This document shows, piece after piece, positions 26,680-58,955 of a stretch of DNA of 64,000 nt. Source of the stretch: Sulfobacillus thermosulfidooxidans DSM 9293 (lineage in GTDB: Bacteria > Bacillota > Sulfobacillia > Sulfobacillales > Sulfobacillaceae); NCBI RefSeq assembly GCF_900176145.1, contig NZ_FWWY01000001.1:1535819-1599818 (forward strand). Reading direction: 5' to 3'. Position 1 is the first letter of the stretch; each line of letters begins with the position of its first letter. A program made the translations under genes and the position numbers. The notes under the pieces are model-generated. The model was not told the origin of the DNA, ran no database searches, and saw only the letters and a program-made list of their open reading frames with translations.

Positions 26680-27312
26680 TAACGCACAATATACTGATCA
26701 CATAATTGGCTATAATGAAGCCGTAGGGTAGTGTCGTCTGTATTTAGCATTCGCCACCGCCAAAACTCCAAAACCAGGCGCGTATATACAAAGCGAATCG
26801 TCCGCATCCATTGTTTGAACATGGTTACCCTCTTTTACTTTTCAACTGATAATCCACAAATATTGCCGATTTAAACGCTCTGCGAAATGGTTTTTATTCA
26901 TCATAAAACTGTGATTTATTATTGGCCGTAATTGCCAAAAAGTCTATAAATCTGCCGGGAATTTTGCCAAATTTGCCAAAGAATCGATCGCATAATTTCC
27001 TAATCTTCGTCAACAACGATCTTTTTTATGTTCGACAAGGCTAGATTTTTGACGAAAGATGACAAAAATTAGATAAAATCGCCAGCTGTCAATTTGAGAA
27101 ATCACGGGGATCTTGTCCGTCATTGTCTATGAGACAAAAATGAGACACACGAGAGTGCAGCTTGTGATACCATCACGTTAGCTGGCCGGCTAAAGTTTTT
27201 CCGATCAATGCTTCCCAATAAATTGCTTCATAATATAAATTGCTGCAATAATCTTGCGTAATTTGCCAAGATTCCTCTTGCCATATGCTTCAAGGACCTT
27301 CATAGTAATACA
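26680..27312. other. AT-rich intergenic region upstream of thiC
   Basis: About 630 bases with no gene I can support. It has several copies of short words such as TTGCCAAA and AATTGC. It ends in the TPP riboswitch. Confidence 0.5.
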
Positions 27313-27400
27313 TAACGGGAGCTCGGCTAACCGGGCTGAGAGGGTGGATTGGCCACCGACCGTCAACCTGATCTGGGTAATGCCAGCGGAGGGAACAGAT
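27313..27400 (+). promoter_or_regulatory. TPP riboswitch (THI element)
   Basis: The conserved blocks of the thi-box appear in order: CGGGAGCTCGG, then GGCTGAGAGGG, then ACCGTCAACCTGATCTGG and TAATGCCAGCGGAGGGAA. It lies about 100 bases before thiC and would reduce expression when thiamine pyrophosphate is abundant. The short spacing and lack of a clear terminator suggest control of translation or an undetected terminator. Confidence 0.92.
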
Positions 27401-27456
27401 TTTGATCCTTTTAGCCCATCCATTCATAAACTTTCCCTACTGCCTGGCATATGTGA

Positions 27457-55415: not shown

Positions 55416-55445
55416 TTGACATCCATGCGAAGACTTGCATATAGT
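55416..55445 (+). promoter_or_regulatory. Promoter for the M-box transcript
   Basis: TTGACA (55416-55421), 18 bases, then TATAGT (55440-55445). The M-box begins about 15-20 bases downstream. Confidence 0.75.
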
Positions 55446-55462
55446 TAGATTGCAAATGAAAT

Positions 55463-55640
55463 AAAGTCCTCGTTAGGCGAGGCGTCTACATCAACACAGG
55501 CCACTGCTCCGAACCGTCCAAAGACGCTAAGGAGTAGAACAGAGGTTGCCGGATTAAGGCTTCTTCCAAGGTGGCTGAATCTTATCAAGGTTCTCACGTG
55601 ATGTAGTGCCGAAGCTCCACCAGGGGGATTACGGTGATTT
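55463..55640 (+). promoter_or_regulatory. M-box (ykoK leader) magnesium riboswitch
   Basis: The diagnostic blocks are in order: TCCTCGTTAGGCGAGGC near 55468, ACACAGGCCACTGC near 55494, CCGTCCAAAGACGC near 55513, GTTGCCGGATTAAGGC (55545-55560), then AGTGCCGAAGCTCC near 55605. These match the Mg2+-sensing M-box. It is followed by a terminator, so high Mg2+ would stop transcription. It leads to an NRAMP-related transporter, the known context in clostridia. Confidence 0.92.
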
Positions 55641-55650
55641 ATGACCATGT

Positions 55651-55680
55651 CCTCTTGCTGGGCTGCAAGAGGATTATTTT
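55651..55680 (+). terminator. Riboswitch-controlled terminator
   Basis: CCTCTTGC pairs with GCAAGAGG around TGGGCT, followed by ATTATTTT. It sits directly after the M-box and is the expected Mg2+-dependent terminator. Confidence 0.85.
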
Positions 55681-55712
55681 ATGTGGCGCAACGGAAAAGG
55701 AGGGTGCATTGG

Positions 55713-55799
55713 GTGAGTACAGACCCAGGAGGCCATAGTAGTTTCTTGCGTTCACGAAAATCAAACATTGTTCTGTGCTCTTCCGAGGGCTGTCCTTAG
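55713..55799 (+). CDS. Putative 28-residue leader peptide
   Basis: GTG 55713 is nine bases behind AAGGAGG. The frame reads VSTDPGGHSSF..., has Arg and Ser codons in the middle, and ends LCSSEGCP before TAG. It lies between the M-box terminator and the transporter gene. Its last codons run through the first arm of the hairpin pair at 55780, so its translation could control the SD of the next gene. Too short for confident call by composition. Confidence 0.5.
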   Translation: MSTDPGGHSSFLRSRKSNIVLCSSEGCP

Positions 55800-55836
55800 C
55801 TGTTGCTATGACCCCCTCGGAAGATGCCGAGGGGGG
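55780..55836 (+). promoter_or_regulatory. Mutually exclusive hairpins masking the transporter SD
   Basis: Segment 1 CTTCCGAGGG (55780-55789) pairs exactly with segment 2 CCCTCGGAAG (55814-55823). Segment 2, as CCCCCTCGG (55812-55820), also pairs exactly with segment 3 CCGAGGGGG (55827-55835), whose G-run is the SD for ATG 55844. The pairings exclude each other, so 1:2 frees the SD and 2:3 hides it. Confidence 0.65.
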
Positions 55837-55843
55837 ATTTACG

Positions 55844-57190
55844 ATGTCGAAAAAGAATGTGTCTGCAGCCACCCCGGTCTTCGATGATGCACGAATCCGT
55901 GCAGAGGACCAGGCACGTGTGGCTGCTCTACGCCAATCTCCGAGTTGGACCAAACGGTTACTCCTATTATTAACGTTGGTTGGCCCCGGTATTCTGGTGA
56001 TGATTGCGGACAATGATGCCGGTGGTGTGATTACTTACGCCCAAACTGGGGCGACCTATGGCATTGGATTTTTCATCCCGGCCTTAGTTGTCGGCGGCCT
56101 TATTGCTTATGTCGTCCAAGAAATGACGGTACGACTTGGTGCGGTCACCCACCGTGGTCATGCGGAAATGATTTGGGGACGGTATGGCGCATTTTGGGGT
56201 TGGTTTTCCCTTGTGGATTTAGTCATCGCTAATGTCCTCACGCTGATCACGGAATTCATCGGGATTACCGTAGGGATGTCGGTTTTTGGTGTGCCGCCAC
56301 TCTTTAGTGCATTAGGTGGACTCATTTTAGATGCGGCGATTTTGTTGGTCTTGCGGTACCGGACATGGGAACGCGTGTCCTTATGGATTGCAGCAGGGAA
56401 TTTAATCTTTATTCCCTTAGCGTTGATGGCGCATCCAAATTGGGGAAAGGTCGTAGGAGCCTTTAGTCATTGGCAAGTTCCCGGGGGTTTTACCGCAGCC
56501 TTTCTGTTTGTGGTGCTCGCCAATTTTGGGACGACGATAGCACCCTGGATGTTGTTTTTCCAACAGTCTTCTGTCGTTGATAAAGGATTAACGGTTCAAG
56601 ATATTCGCCATGGCCAATTTGATACGGCACTGGGAGCCTTTGCCATGGTGGTGGTGGCGGTGGCGCTGGTCGTCTTAACCGGAACAATTGCTTATGGTCA
56701 CCCTGGAGCTGCGAATTACAACATCCAACAAATTATGCAAATGATTGGGCAACATCTGGGCCGTGTGGGTCAAGACCTCTTTGCTTTAGGTTTAGTCGAG
56801 GCGGGTACTATTGCAGCAATTGCCTTGACGGCAAGCACCTCGTGGGCCATGGGGGAAGCATTTCATTGGCCCAAGAGCATTAATCTTCCGGTTCGTCAGG
56901 CATGGCGGTTTTATGTCCCGGGCCTGTTAAGCGCGGGAATTGCCGCAGCAATTGTTTTGATACCGAATGCGCCACTGGGATTTTTGAATTTGACGGTTCA
57001 AGTTGTGGCCTCGATCTTTATGCCCGCGGCGCTGCTGTTTCTCTTGTTACTCCTCAATGACCGGGAGATTATGGGCGATTATGTCAATCGCAAGTGGCAA
57101 AACCTTTCGGCCTACGCCATTGTGGGATTGCTTGTCGTTCTCAATGGGCTGTACGGAGTGTCTGTCGTGTTTCCCCACCTGTTTCAATAA
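55844..57190 (+). CDS. NRAMP-related Mg2+ transporter (NRMT-like)
   Basis: A 448-residue transporter with eleven helices. TM1 reads GPGILVMIADNDAGGVITYAQ; classical NRAMP has DPGN here. TM6 reads TTIAPWMLFFQQ, where classical NRAMP has MPH, so the metal-binding Met is Ala. Both changes match the NRMT Mg2+ transporters of the SLC11 family. With the M-box leader this supports Mg2+ uptake. ATG 55844 lies seven bases behind GGGGGG and is preferred to the longer ORF start at 55775. A small membrane-protein gene follows before the terminator. Confidence 0.88.
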   Translation: MSKKNVSAATPVFDDARIRAEDQARVAALRQSPSWTKRLLLLLTLVGPGILVMIADNDAGGVITYAQTGATYGIGFFIPALVVGGLIAYVVQEMTVRLGAVTHRGHAEMIWGRYGAFWGWFSLVDLVIANVLTLITEFIGITVGMSVFGVPPLFSALGGLILDAAILLVLRYRTWERVSLWIAAGNLIFIPLALMAHPNWGKVVGAFSHWQVPGGFTAAFLFVVLANFGTTIAPWMLFFQQSSVVDKGLTVQDIRHGQFDTALGAFAMVVVAVALVVLTGTIAYGHPGAANYNIQQIMQMIGQHLGRVGQDLFALGLVEAGTIAAIALTASTSWAMGEAFHWPKSINLPVRQAWRFYVPGLLSAGIAAAIVLIPNAPLGFLNLTVQVVASIFMPAALLFLLLLLNDREIMGDYVNRKWQNLSAYAIVGLLVVLNGLYGVSVVFPHLFQ

Positions 57191-57217
57191 AGTCGATTAA
57201 AGAGTTTGTCAGACCAC

Positions 57218-57244
57218 GATGACAGGGATGACAGGGATGACAGG
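57218..57244 (+). repeat. Three tandem copies of a 9-bp repeat
   Basis: GATGACAGG occurs three times in a row, followed by the partial copy GATGAT. In frame it would encode D-D-R units, but no supported gene covers it. Confidence 0.8.
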
Positions 57245-57331
57245 GATGATGCCTTTTACAAAGGATTTCCGTCTCGTAGTCAGATAGGGAAAAAGAGAAC
57301 AAGTAAGAAAGCCAGGAAGGAGGAGGTGCCA

Positions 57332-57508: not shown

Positions 57509-57573
57509 GGGGCCCAACATGGCCAAAGAAGGGGAGAAATAACCATGGATAGTGAATATCCGCCATTATGATG

Positions 57574-57611
57574 CCTGGTCGAGAGAAATAAAAACTCGAC
57601 CAGGTTTTTTT
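57574..57611 (+). terminator. Terminator of the M-box operon
   Basis: CCTGGTCGAG pairs with CTCGACCAGG over AGAAATAAAAA, then seven T. Confidence 0.92.
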
Positions 57612-57731
57612 GTTGTGAGAAAATCAAACAGGTAATCATTAACACGCTCAACACCAAAGAATCTCACCAAGATATCAAAAAAACGTTATATTAAATGAGA
57701 ACGAATGTCATTATCCATTATGGAGATTTAT

Positions 57732-58955
57732 ATGGAACTTCAACGATCAACGATTGGCCATGGAATGCCGAAAACAACGTGGCAATGGCTAAGGCTTTTG
57801 GGGCCAGGAATTATTGTAATGCTGGCAGATACTGATGCGGGAAGTGTGGTGACCGCGGCCCAGTCGGGAGCGCAGTTTGGAGCGTCCTTGCTCATCCCGG
57901 ATCTTTTATTGATCGGGGTATTGTACCTTGTTCAAGAAATGACAGTCCGGCTGGGATTGATTACGGGACAAGGGCATGGAGAATTAATCGAAAAGTATTT
58001 TGGCCGCAAATGGGCCACTTTGTCGGTTTTGACGTTATTTTTGAGTGCAGTTGGTGCTCTAGTCACCGAGTACGCGGGCATTGCCACCGTTGGTCAACTT
58101 TTAGGCGCGAGTAAATTCTGGTTTGTCCCTTTGGTGGCTTTGGCCTTGATGAGTGCGGCTTTTTTGGGAAAATACCGGCGCGCGGAGCGTTTTGGTATTA
58201 TTTTGGGTTTATTAGAATTGGCTTTTATTCCTGCGGCGTTCTTTGGTTTATTCAAGGGGATCGGCAACGTTCAAAGCATTTGGATTTTACCCTTTGGGCA
58301 TGAAGATTTTGCGTGGATGGTTGCGGCCAATGTGGGAGCTGTTGTGATGCCCTGGATGATTTTCTTTCAGCAGCAAGCCGTATCCGATAGTGGTTTGACC
58401 CCCGGACAGTTAAAAATTGCCCGACGGGATACACTTCTTGGGGCGGTGCTTACCCAAGCCGTGATGATTGCGGTAATGTTCACCGCAGCCGAAGCATTTC
58501 CCCACCATCATACGTTAACCTCAATTGCCTCGCTTGCCCAAACCCTGGTTCCTTTATTAGGTCACAGTGCGATTATCATCTTCGGGGCAGGACTTTTCGG
58601 AGCCAGTACCGTGGCGGCCCTCGTGGTCTCATTGGCGGGGGCTTGGGGAATGGCTGAAGTCTTTGGCTGGAAACACAGTCTAAACAGTGATTTTAAAGAG
58701 ACACCCCAATTTCATATCGTGTATGCCCTCTCACATGTGATTGCCGTCCTTTTCGTCTTGGTCGCCATTCAATTCGTGTCATTAAGTATCGATGTCGAAA
58801 TTATGAATGCCATGTTATTGCCGATAGTCTTGGGATTTTTGATTGCTTTGGAATATCGGGCTTTGCCGCACCATTGGAAAATGAGCCATCGCCGCCGGGT
58901 GCTTGTCATTATTACGAGTATTGTTACGATATTGCTGGGTTTATTAACCCTTTAA
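57732..58955 (+). CDS. Second NRAMP-related transporter
   Basis: A 407-residue paralogue of the first. TM1 has LADTDAGSVVTAAQSGAQ and TM6 has VVMPWMIFFQQQAV. It therefore keeps the Met of classical NRAMP metal sites in TM6 but shares the D-x-D-A-G TM1. Its metal may differ from that of the first transporter. There is no M-box in front. ATG 57732 follows GGAG; the longer start at 57705 lacks an SD. Confidence 0.85.
   Translation: MELQRSTIGHGMPKTTWQWLRLLGPGIIVMLADTDAGSVVTAAQSGAQFGASLLIPDLLLIGVLYLVQEMTVRLGLITGQGHGELIEKYFGRKWATLSVLTLFLSAVGALVTEYAGIATVGQLLGASKFWFVPLVALALMSAAFLGKYRRAERFGIILGLLELAFIPAAFFGLFKGIGNVQSIWILPFGHEDFAWMVAANVGAVVMPWMIFFQQQAVSDSGLTPGQLKIARRDTLLGAVLTQAVMIAVMFTAAEAFPHHHTLTSIASLAQTLVPLLGHSAIIIFGAGLFGASTVAALVVSLAGAWGMAEVFGWKHSLNSDFKETPQFHIVYALSHVIAVLFVLVAIQFVSLSIDVEIMNAMLLPIVLGFLIALEYRALPHHWKMSHRRRVLVIITSIVTILLGLLTL

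Follow-up and report, generated by a model that had tools for sequence, protein, structure and literature searches.

Organization of the locus

The window, a stretch of 64,000 nucleotides of Sulfobacillus thermosulfidooxidans DSM 9293, harbors an NRAMP-family transporter gene that is preceded, from 5' to 3', by a promoter-like site, an M-box Mg2+ riboswitch, a terminator-like hairpin and a short leader ORF (Table 1). The M-box was identified by a covariance model and exceeds the gathering score of RF00380, which is 44, while the promoter-like site is a consensus match of which one was found against 0.7 expected in shuffled sequence. An initial annotation, made from the letters of the window, had described a 28-codon ORF with a good Shine-Dalgarno (SD) sequence after the M-box terminator, and this description is exact (SD AAGGAGGG, GTG at 55713, TAG at 55797-55799); a purine-rich SD is also kept at the same position in relatives.

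The transporter is probably an Nramp-related Mg2+ transporter (NrmT), as membership of the Nramp family, M-box control and a score far below the NCBIfam cut-off for MntH are found together, as judged from profile scores. Proteins of Sulfobacillus thermotolerans and S. benefaciens are among its named relatives. A second NRAMP gene follows at 57705-58955, upstream of which lie an 8-codon ORF with an SD (MDSEYPPL, 57545-57571) and, just 3' of it, a terminator-like hairpin with seven T (57574-57611); the ORF is not conserved, the sister genome having MERMSAVMMPGREK instead. Between the two NRAMP genes, about four copies of the short tandem repeat GATGACAGG (57216-57250) lie at the start of a 100-codon ORF, and elsewhere in the window a TPP riboswitch was located at 27305-27412 (58.6 bits).

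Table 1. Features of the M-box/NRAMP locus, in positions of the window
Feature	Position	Strand	Basis or remark
Promoter-like site TTGACA-18-TATAGT	55416..55445	+	11/12 consensus matches; consensus match only
M-box Mg2+ riboswitch aptamer	55462..55633	+	RF00380, 138.1 bits, E 4.8e-31
M-box terminator-like hairpin with U-rich tail	55649..55684	+	10-pair stem 55649-55674, then TATTTTATGT
Leader Shine-Dalgarno AAGGAGGG	55697..55704	+	read from sequence
Segment 0, leader start region	55709..55723	+	pairs with ORF end in minimum-energy fold
Leader ORF, GTG start, 28 codons and TAG	55713..55799	+	peptide MSTDPGGHSSFLRSRKSNIVLCSSEGCP, begins MSTDPGGHS
N-terminal codons 2-9, STDPGGHS, proposed Mg2+-sensitive stretch	55716..55739	+	conservation; Mg2+ role inferred
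Out-of-frame (-1) UAG	55736..55738	+	conserved in class leaders
Segment 1, antisequestor arm, inside leader ORF	55780..55789	+	CTTCCGAGGG; 10 bp with 55814-55823
Segment 2, anti-SD, partner of 1 or 3	55812..55823	+	complementarity
Segment 3 with transporter Shine-Dalgarno GGGGGG (55831-55836)	55827..55836	+	9 bp with 55812-55820
NRAMP-family transporter	55844..57190	+	Pfam Nramp 3e-61

Conservation of the leader peptide within the class

M-box loci were located in 154 genomes of the class Sulfobacillia and the sequence downstream of them was read. Nearly every M-box/NRAMP locus of the class carries a leader ORF, preceded by an SD, roughly 24-48 codons long and situated 3' of the terminator; at one such locus (L032) its N-terminus is atypical. 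No DPGG leader was found at the M-boxes of the class that precede MgtE- or CorA-like genes, and one M-box before a cation-ATPase-like gene, named by sequence alone, is followed by the related leader MDPGDSSQS (L033).

Asp4, Pro5 and Gly7 are invariant in all 22 aligned leaders, and the codons behind them vary synonymously, four proline and three glycine codons being in use. Pairwise codon differences in frame 0 comprise 306 synonymous and 235 nonsynonymous ones, against 21:491 in the +1 and 153:346 in the -1 frame, counts that are descriptive only because the pairs are related and not independent. Since the synonymous excess is confined to frame 0, the leader frame is, to judge by its codons, under protein-level selection, and there can be little doubt that the leader is conserved and translated. 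Conservation is limited to about nine N-terminal residues, the remaining sequence and the length being variable, and this acidic-proline N-terminus had been overlooked in the initial annotation.

A second conserved element of the same stretch is a stop codon in the -1 frame: UAG or UAA occurs at codons 5-11 in 42 of 46 class leaders, a UAR in the +1 frame at those codons in none of the 46, and a UAR at the equivalent place of NRAMP genes in none of 38, with the reservation that the loci are related to each other and the counts across them are not independent. Its context is nearly always xxT-ARx (CAT-AGT, GAT-AGT, CAT-AAA). A programmed -1 frameshift at GAC-CCN was considered and rejected, as leaders with GAT-CCT and leaders lacking proline retain the stop and no common slippery site is present; the -1 frame was likewise discarded as a second translated ORF, a start codon being absent from it in several loci. 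A 9-codon TTG ORF of the window (MGEYRPRRP) was set aside because the TTG is not conserved.

A probable three-segment switch between leader and transporter

The three segments that the initial annotation had drawn up are exact, 1:2 with 10 bp, 2:3 with 9 bp (CCCCCTCGG at 55812-55820 with CCGAGGGGG at 55827-55835) and the transporter SD inside segment 3, so that the 2:3 helix covers the SD of the transporter ATG at 55844. Its placing of segment 1 in the last leader codons also holds generally, segment 1 lying wholly within the leader ORF at 30 of 30 curated loci and ending 0-31 nt before the stop codon. The reading frame across segment 1 is frame 0, 1 and 2 in 7, 12 and 11 of these loci; a location in the ORF in all three frames is what a need for ribosomes to cross segment 1 would predict, and what a functional end of the peptide would not.

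The score of the triple complementarity (1:2 together with 2:3) beats dinucleotide shuffles with p = 0.005 in the window and with a Fisher-combined p of 7e-8 over 15 genera, each represented by one median value and some of them individually not significant. Because MAFFT, applied to the switch region, put segment 3 one base off in some rows, the pair counts were taken from 21 sequences in a hand-curated register, which itself leans towards the tested structure: 87% of the cells are paired for 1:2 and 93% for 2:3, against at most 70% in a slid register, and compensatory changes affect 5 pairs of 1:2 and 6 of the 9 pairs of 2:3. At four loci (L021, L036, L038, L029) a T to C change in segment 2 is accompanied by A to G changes in both partners. 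Pairing with own segments is better than with foreign ones for 2:3 (p 0.003) and not significantly so for 1:2 (p 0.19), the 1:2 sequences being too constant and alike. The covariation that the initial annotation had called for is thus seen as compensatory changes in both helices and, in the own-versus-foreign comparison, for 2:3 and not for 1:2; its central comparative expectation, that relatives share the leader ORF and the complementarity, is borne out.

Predicted folding with a ribosome on the leader

A further helix, which the initial annotation lacked, joins the start of the leader to the end of the ORF: in the predicted fold, the main 0:1 helix pairs 55715-55723 with 55772-55780 and extends beyond. 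In an own-versus-foreign test, 0:1 pairing is better within than between genera (p 0.003). When no ribosome is placed on the window RNA, 0:1 and 2:3 are predicted and the SD is hidden; a mask over the first leader codons yields 1:2 (0.95), and a mask at the leader stop yields 2:3 (0.89). Over the 30 loci, the mean predicted probability of 1:2 prior to transcription of segment 3 is 0.82 if a ribosome occupies the leader start, 0.65 if it stands at codon 6 and 0.41 on ribosome-free RNA. For a ribosome at the stop it is about 0, which mostly reflects the design of the model, as the mask then lies over segment 1 or 2.

These predictions agree with the original notion that a ribosome finishing the leader would cover segment 1 and leave the SD hidden. 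The accompanying proposal that either a stall or a lack of translation would free segment 1 is in keeping with the predictions for an early ribosome (mean 0.82) and doubtful for the untranslated leader (0.41), because a ribosome-free leader start is predicted to pair with the ORF end at equilibrium. As this further helix is predicted to keep the SD of an untranslated leader hidden, the ON state probably needs a ribosome that is held or lost early in the leader.

Equilibrium SD accessibility across loci shows no change in the expected direction with ribosome position: once segment 3 is present, the SD is hidden in nearly every case wherever the ribosome stands, so that any switch must be kinetic. 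Equilibrium accessibility was therefore abandoned as proof of switching, for which it gives no robust support across loci. At about 12 of the 30 loci the stop lies at most 5 nt before segment 2, so that a terminating ribosome would block segment 2 as well, which keeps alive the alternative of translational coupling weighed below. The complementarity and the masking predictions speak for a switch set by ribosome position, and equilibrium folding does not; overall such a switch is probable.

Acidic-proline leaders beyond the class

A sample of the phylum outside the class, 398 genomes, yielded 101 M-box loci, in 67 of which a short ORF with an SD lies ahead of the main gene; acidic residues together with proline within codons 2-8 characterize the leader at 41 of the 101, and 10 of the 101 main genes show the same. 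As in the class, these loci are related and their counts not independent. SAM and TPP riboswitches, subjected to the same treatment, gave a short ORF at 8 of 54 loci and acidic residues with proline at none (41/101 against 0/54, p 6e-10), a control expressed per locus because it contains only 8 short ORFs. In 48 distinct leaders, codons 2-8 hold 92 acidic residues where 38 were expected on shuffling each peptide, the maximum over 5000 shuffles being 58, and codon 2 is acidic in 38 of them, 5 being expected. MDPDPGSS, MDADPDD, MDADPEPQ, MDGDPSP, MDDPDADL and MESDDDY may serve as examples. Nor does the architecture of the window stand alone, as such leaders follow many M-boxes of Bacillota and Salmonella mgtQ works by nearly the same logic (PMC8092293).

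Ten of the downstream genes were tested and comprise three MgtE, three CorA, two P-type ATPases, one protein with a PRC-barrel domain only and one ABC permease. What follows the leaders varies between a hidden SD, a terminator (for instance at L034, L094, L117 and L125) and an overlap with the next gene, into which some leader ORFs extend 47-92 nt; readthrough of the overlap and terminator leaders could also repress. At one locus with an M-box and the leader MDADPEPQ (L071) the gene downstream encodes an ABC-type permease, L060 looks alike, and at L002 an M-box without a leader is followed by a permease-like membrane protein; it is possible, from sequence, that all three are uncharacterised Mg2+ ABC importers. 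Eight further M-boxes (L093, L102, L103, L108, L109, L115, L121, L124) are followed directly, with no leader, by one protein family whose members start like VARATNLALTMIMAALLIAFAYFAY.

M-box and leader also occur together in Alicyclobacillus, Sulfoacidibacillus and Ferroacidibacillus. At the gathering score no M-box was found at the NRAMP loci of Acidithiobacillus, several of which carry leaders nonetheless (MDSHPRWP..., MDSDPSCF..., MDSYPGRP...), some being followed by a stable hairpin, which at L284 has a T-rich tail. In a further bacterial group, leaders beginning MRSEPDSS... precede NRAMP genes where the M-box is absent. The NRAMP leader loci without an M-box are, in two sets, L283, L284, L288, L290, L294 and L300, and L287, L296-L299, L301, L303, L306, L309, L312 and L315. 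It is an even question whether the leaders with an acidic-proline start form one large class of ribosome-based Mg2+ sensors in Bacillota and some other lineages, usually 3' of an M-box and also without one, with at least three outputs (SD sequestor, terminator and start-codon overlap).

Comparison with known systems

Translational attenuators of the erm type consist of a leader peptide and alternative hairpins, the SD being freed by a ribosome that is held early. In contrast with the locus described here, their stall is induced by an antibiotic, and they control a resistance gene rather than a Mg2+ transporter.

Closer in kind are the Mg2+ leaders of Enterobacteria. E. coli MgtL has EPDP at codons 2-5, where, according to earlier work cited in PMC11282234, ribosomes drop off at low Mg2+ so that mgtA is expressed, and proline codons and EF-P matter for mgtL (PMC6460261). 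In MgtQ, Asp2 and Glu5 release the hidden RBS of mgtB (PMC8092293), while for corL, which has a conserved N-terminus with a single proline, translation runs inversely to corA, and the ON fold has been suggested to be favoured by a small subunit that stalls on the start (PMC11552253). The window shares with this kind of leader a short ORF that has an SD and lies 5' of a putative Mg2+ transporter gene, and conserved acidic and proline first codons, the window peptide having only one acidic residue. Salmonella mgtQ shares early acidic codons, a short ORF, mutually exclusive stem-loops and a sequestered RBS of a Mg2+ transporter that is freed by inefficient translation (PMC8092293), as would be the case here; however, mgtQ has 8 codons, lies between mgtC and mgtB, serves a P-type ATPase and lacks an M-box, whereas the Sulfobacillus leader has 28 codons, follows an M-box, precedes an NRAMP gene and belongs to Bacillota. 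With mgtL and corL it has in common a uORF within the 5' leader RNA of a transporter for Mg2+, an acidic or proline N-terminus and alternative RNA folds, and the EPDP of MgtL shares Asp4-Pro5 with it, two other leaders beginning MDPDP and VDPDP (L079/L112). Their uORF translation was measured to be inverse to transporter expression, a relation that may hold in Sulfobacillus; their output is Rho-dependent termination without an M-box and not an SD-sequestering hairpin, and the likeness of the peptides is one of kind.

The initial annotation knew of no described case of such an arrangement downstream of an M-box. A uORF platform after an M-box was, however, reported in 2026 for pe20 of M. tuberculosis, with downstream short ORFs and three-way pairing of anti-anti-SD, anti-SD and SD (PMC12810186), and what remains of the claim is a different anatomy. 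In pe20 the anti-anti-SD sits at the end of the aptamer, conservation of the first uORF is poor and it is a conserved uORF that is regulated, whereas the Sulfobacillus antisequestor lies about 150 nt past the aptamer and beyond an intrinsic terminator, in the last part of a leader whose start is conserved; in the window no anti-anti-SD was found at the aptamer's 3' end, segment 1 beginning 147 nt after it. In Clostridium acetobutylicum an M-box likewise precedes NrmT, and the passages found on it mention no leader ORF (PMC4072509). A search confined to open-access papers, subscription papers lying outside it, turned up no account of leaders with an acidic-proline start behind Bacillota M-boxes, and the acidic, proline-containing leaders after many Bacillota M-boxes are apparently undescribed so far.

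Proposed mechanism and alternatives

On balance we favour, by a modest lean, a second Mg2+ gate that depends on ribosome position and acts in series with the M-box. The M-box would stop transcription first, at high Mg2+, and the transcripts that pass it would meet a gate reading the travel of ribosomes along the leader ORF. At low cytosolic Mg2+, ribosomes would pause or drop off within about nine codons at ...Asp-Pro-Gly-Gly..., a step modelled on MgtL and MgtQ. A ribosome at the leader start is then predicted from folding to block the pairing of segment 0 with the ORF end, and the free segment 1 would take segment 2 before segment 3 is made, leaving the SD exposed (ON). With sufficient Mg2+, ribosomes are predicted to read on to the stop, a short way 3' of segment 1, and to cover that segment, whereupon 2:3 would form and hide the transporter SD (OFF). 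A leader that is not translated would be expected to adopt 0:1 and 2:3 at equilibrium and be OFF as well, and the M-box terminator and the leader gate would act in the same direction. Of the initial idea of a second gate in series, the translated leader and the conserved exclusive hairpins stand, and the logic needs amending for the translation-free state.

Both the Mg2+ signal and the direction of the switch are what we infer from these comparisons; Mg2+-dependent pausing or abortion is the signal to which we incline, if only somewhat, and the conserved Asp-Pro N-terminus is its likely sensor. The window peptide, with one early acidic residue and one proline, is weaker than EPDP, and in a study of EttA a clear effect on the test protein took at least DPEE (PMC11282234).

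The same switch may instead answer another signal of slow translation, such as charged tRNA-Pro or tRNA-Gly, EF-P, ATP or pH, and thereby provide the Mg2+ operon with a second, independent input, as is the case with mgtP and mgtM in Salmonella; this we consider unlikely, if worth attention. The conserved Pro and Gly-Gly stretch of the leader, the tandem attenuators with different signals in mgtCBR (PMC3641672) and the action of EF-P on mgtL (PMC6460261) are in keeping with it, but the window peptide has a single proline, the feature common throughout the phylum is the acidic residues (92 against 38 expected), and the genes tested downstream are mostly Mg2+ transporters. Translational coupling, in which the ribosome at the leader stop opens 2:3 or slides to the transporter SD and so activates the transporter, is improbable as well: the stop is 0-5 nt from segment 2 in about 12 of 30 loci, and in several loci the SD is predicted to become more accessible when the mask is placed on the stop, yet the conserved 1:2 complementarity and the conserved acidic start would go unexplained, and in the window the ribosome footprint ends just before segment 2. 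For a pure RNA platform, in which segments 1-3 would give the M-box a translational output or act as an RNA thermoswitch and the ORF would be incidental, the M. tuberculosis platform offers a precedent (PMC12810186), but such a reading is very improbable in view of the frame-specific synonymous variation, of a segment 1 that is always inside the ORF and in three frames, and of leaders that occur also without an M-box. That the leader product works as a small protein, on the transporter or at another site, in the manner of MgtR or MgtU, is scarcely credible, for although Mg2+ transporters of Salmonella are regulated by small proteins (PMC8092293) and the N-terminus is conserved, this conservation spans about nine residues, the rest, the length and the segment-1 frame vary, and the peptide has no NCBIfam match.

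Implications

Control at the leader level would escape M-box reporters whose fusion point lies upstream of the leader, and the leaders are a large set of natural peptides with which to ask what nascent chains destabilise ribosomes when Mg2+ is low. Ribosomal Mg2+ sensing was worked out in Enterobacteria, and the same kind of leader is now found behind the M-box of Bacillota and, with no M-box, before the Mg2+-type NRAMP genes of Acidithiobacillus and another group. If the favoured Mg2+ gate is real, ribosome-based Mg2+ sensing would be widespread, being of ancient origin or having been invented more than once, and M-box operons would read Mg2+ twice, in series, by unrelated means.
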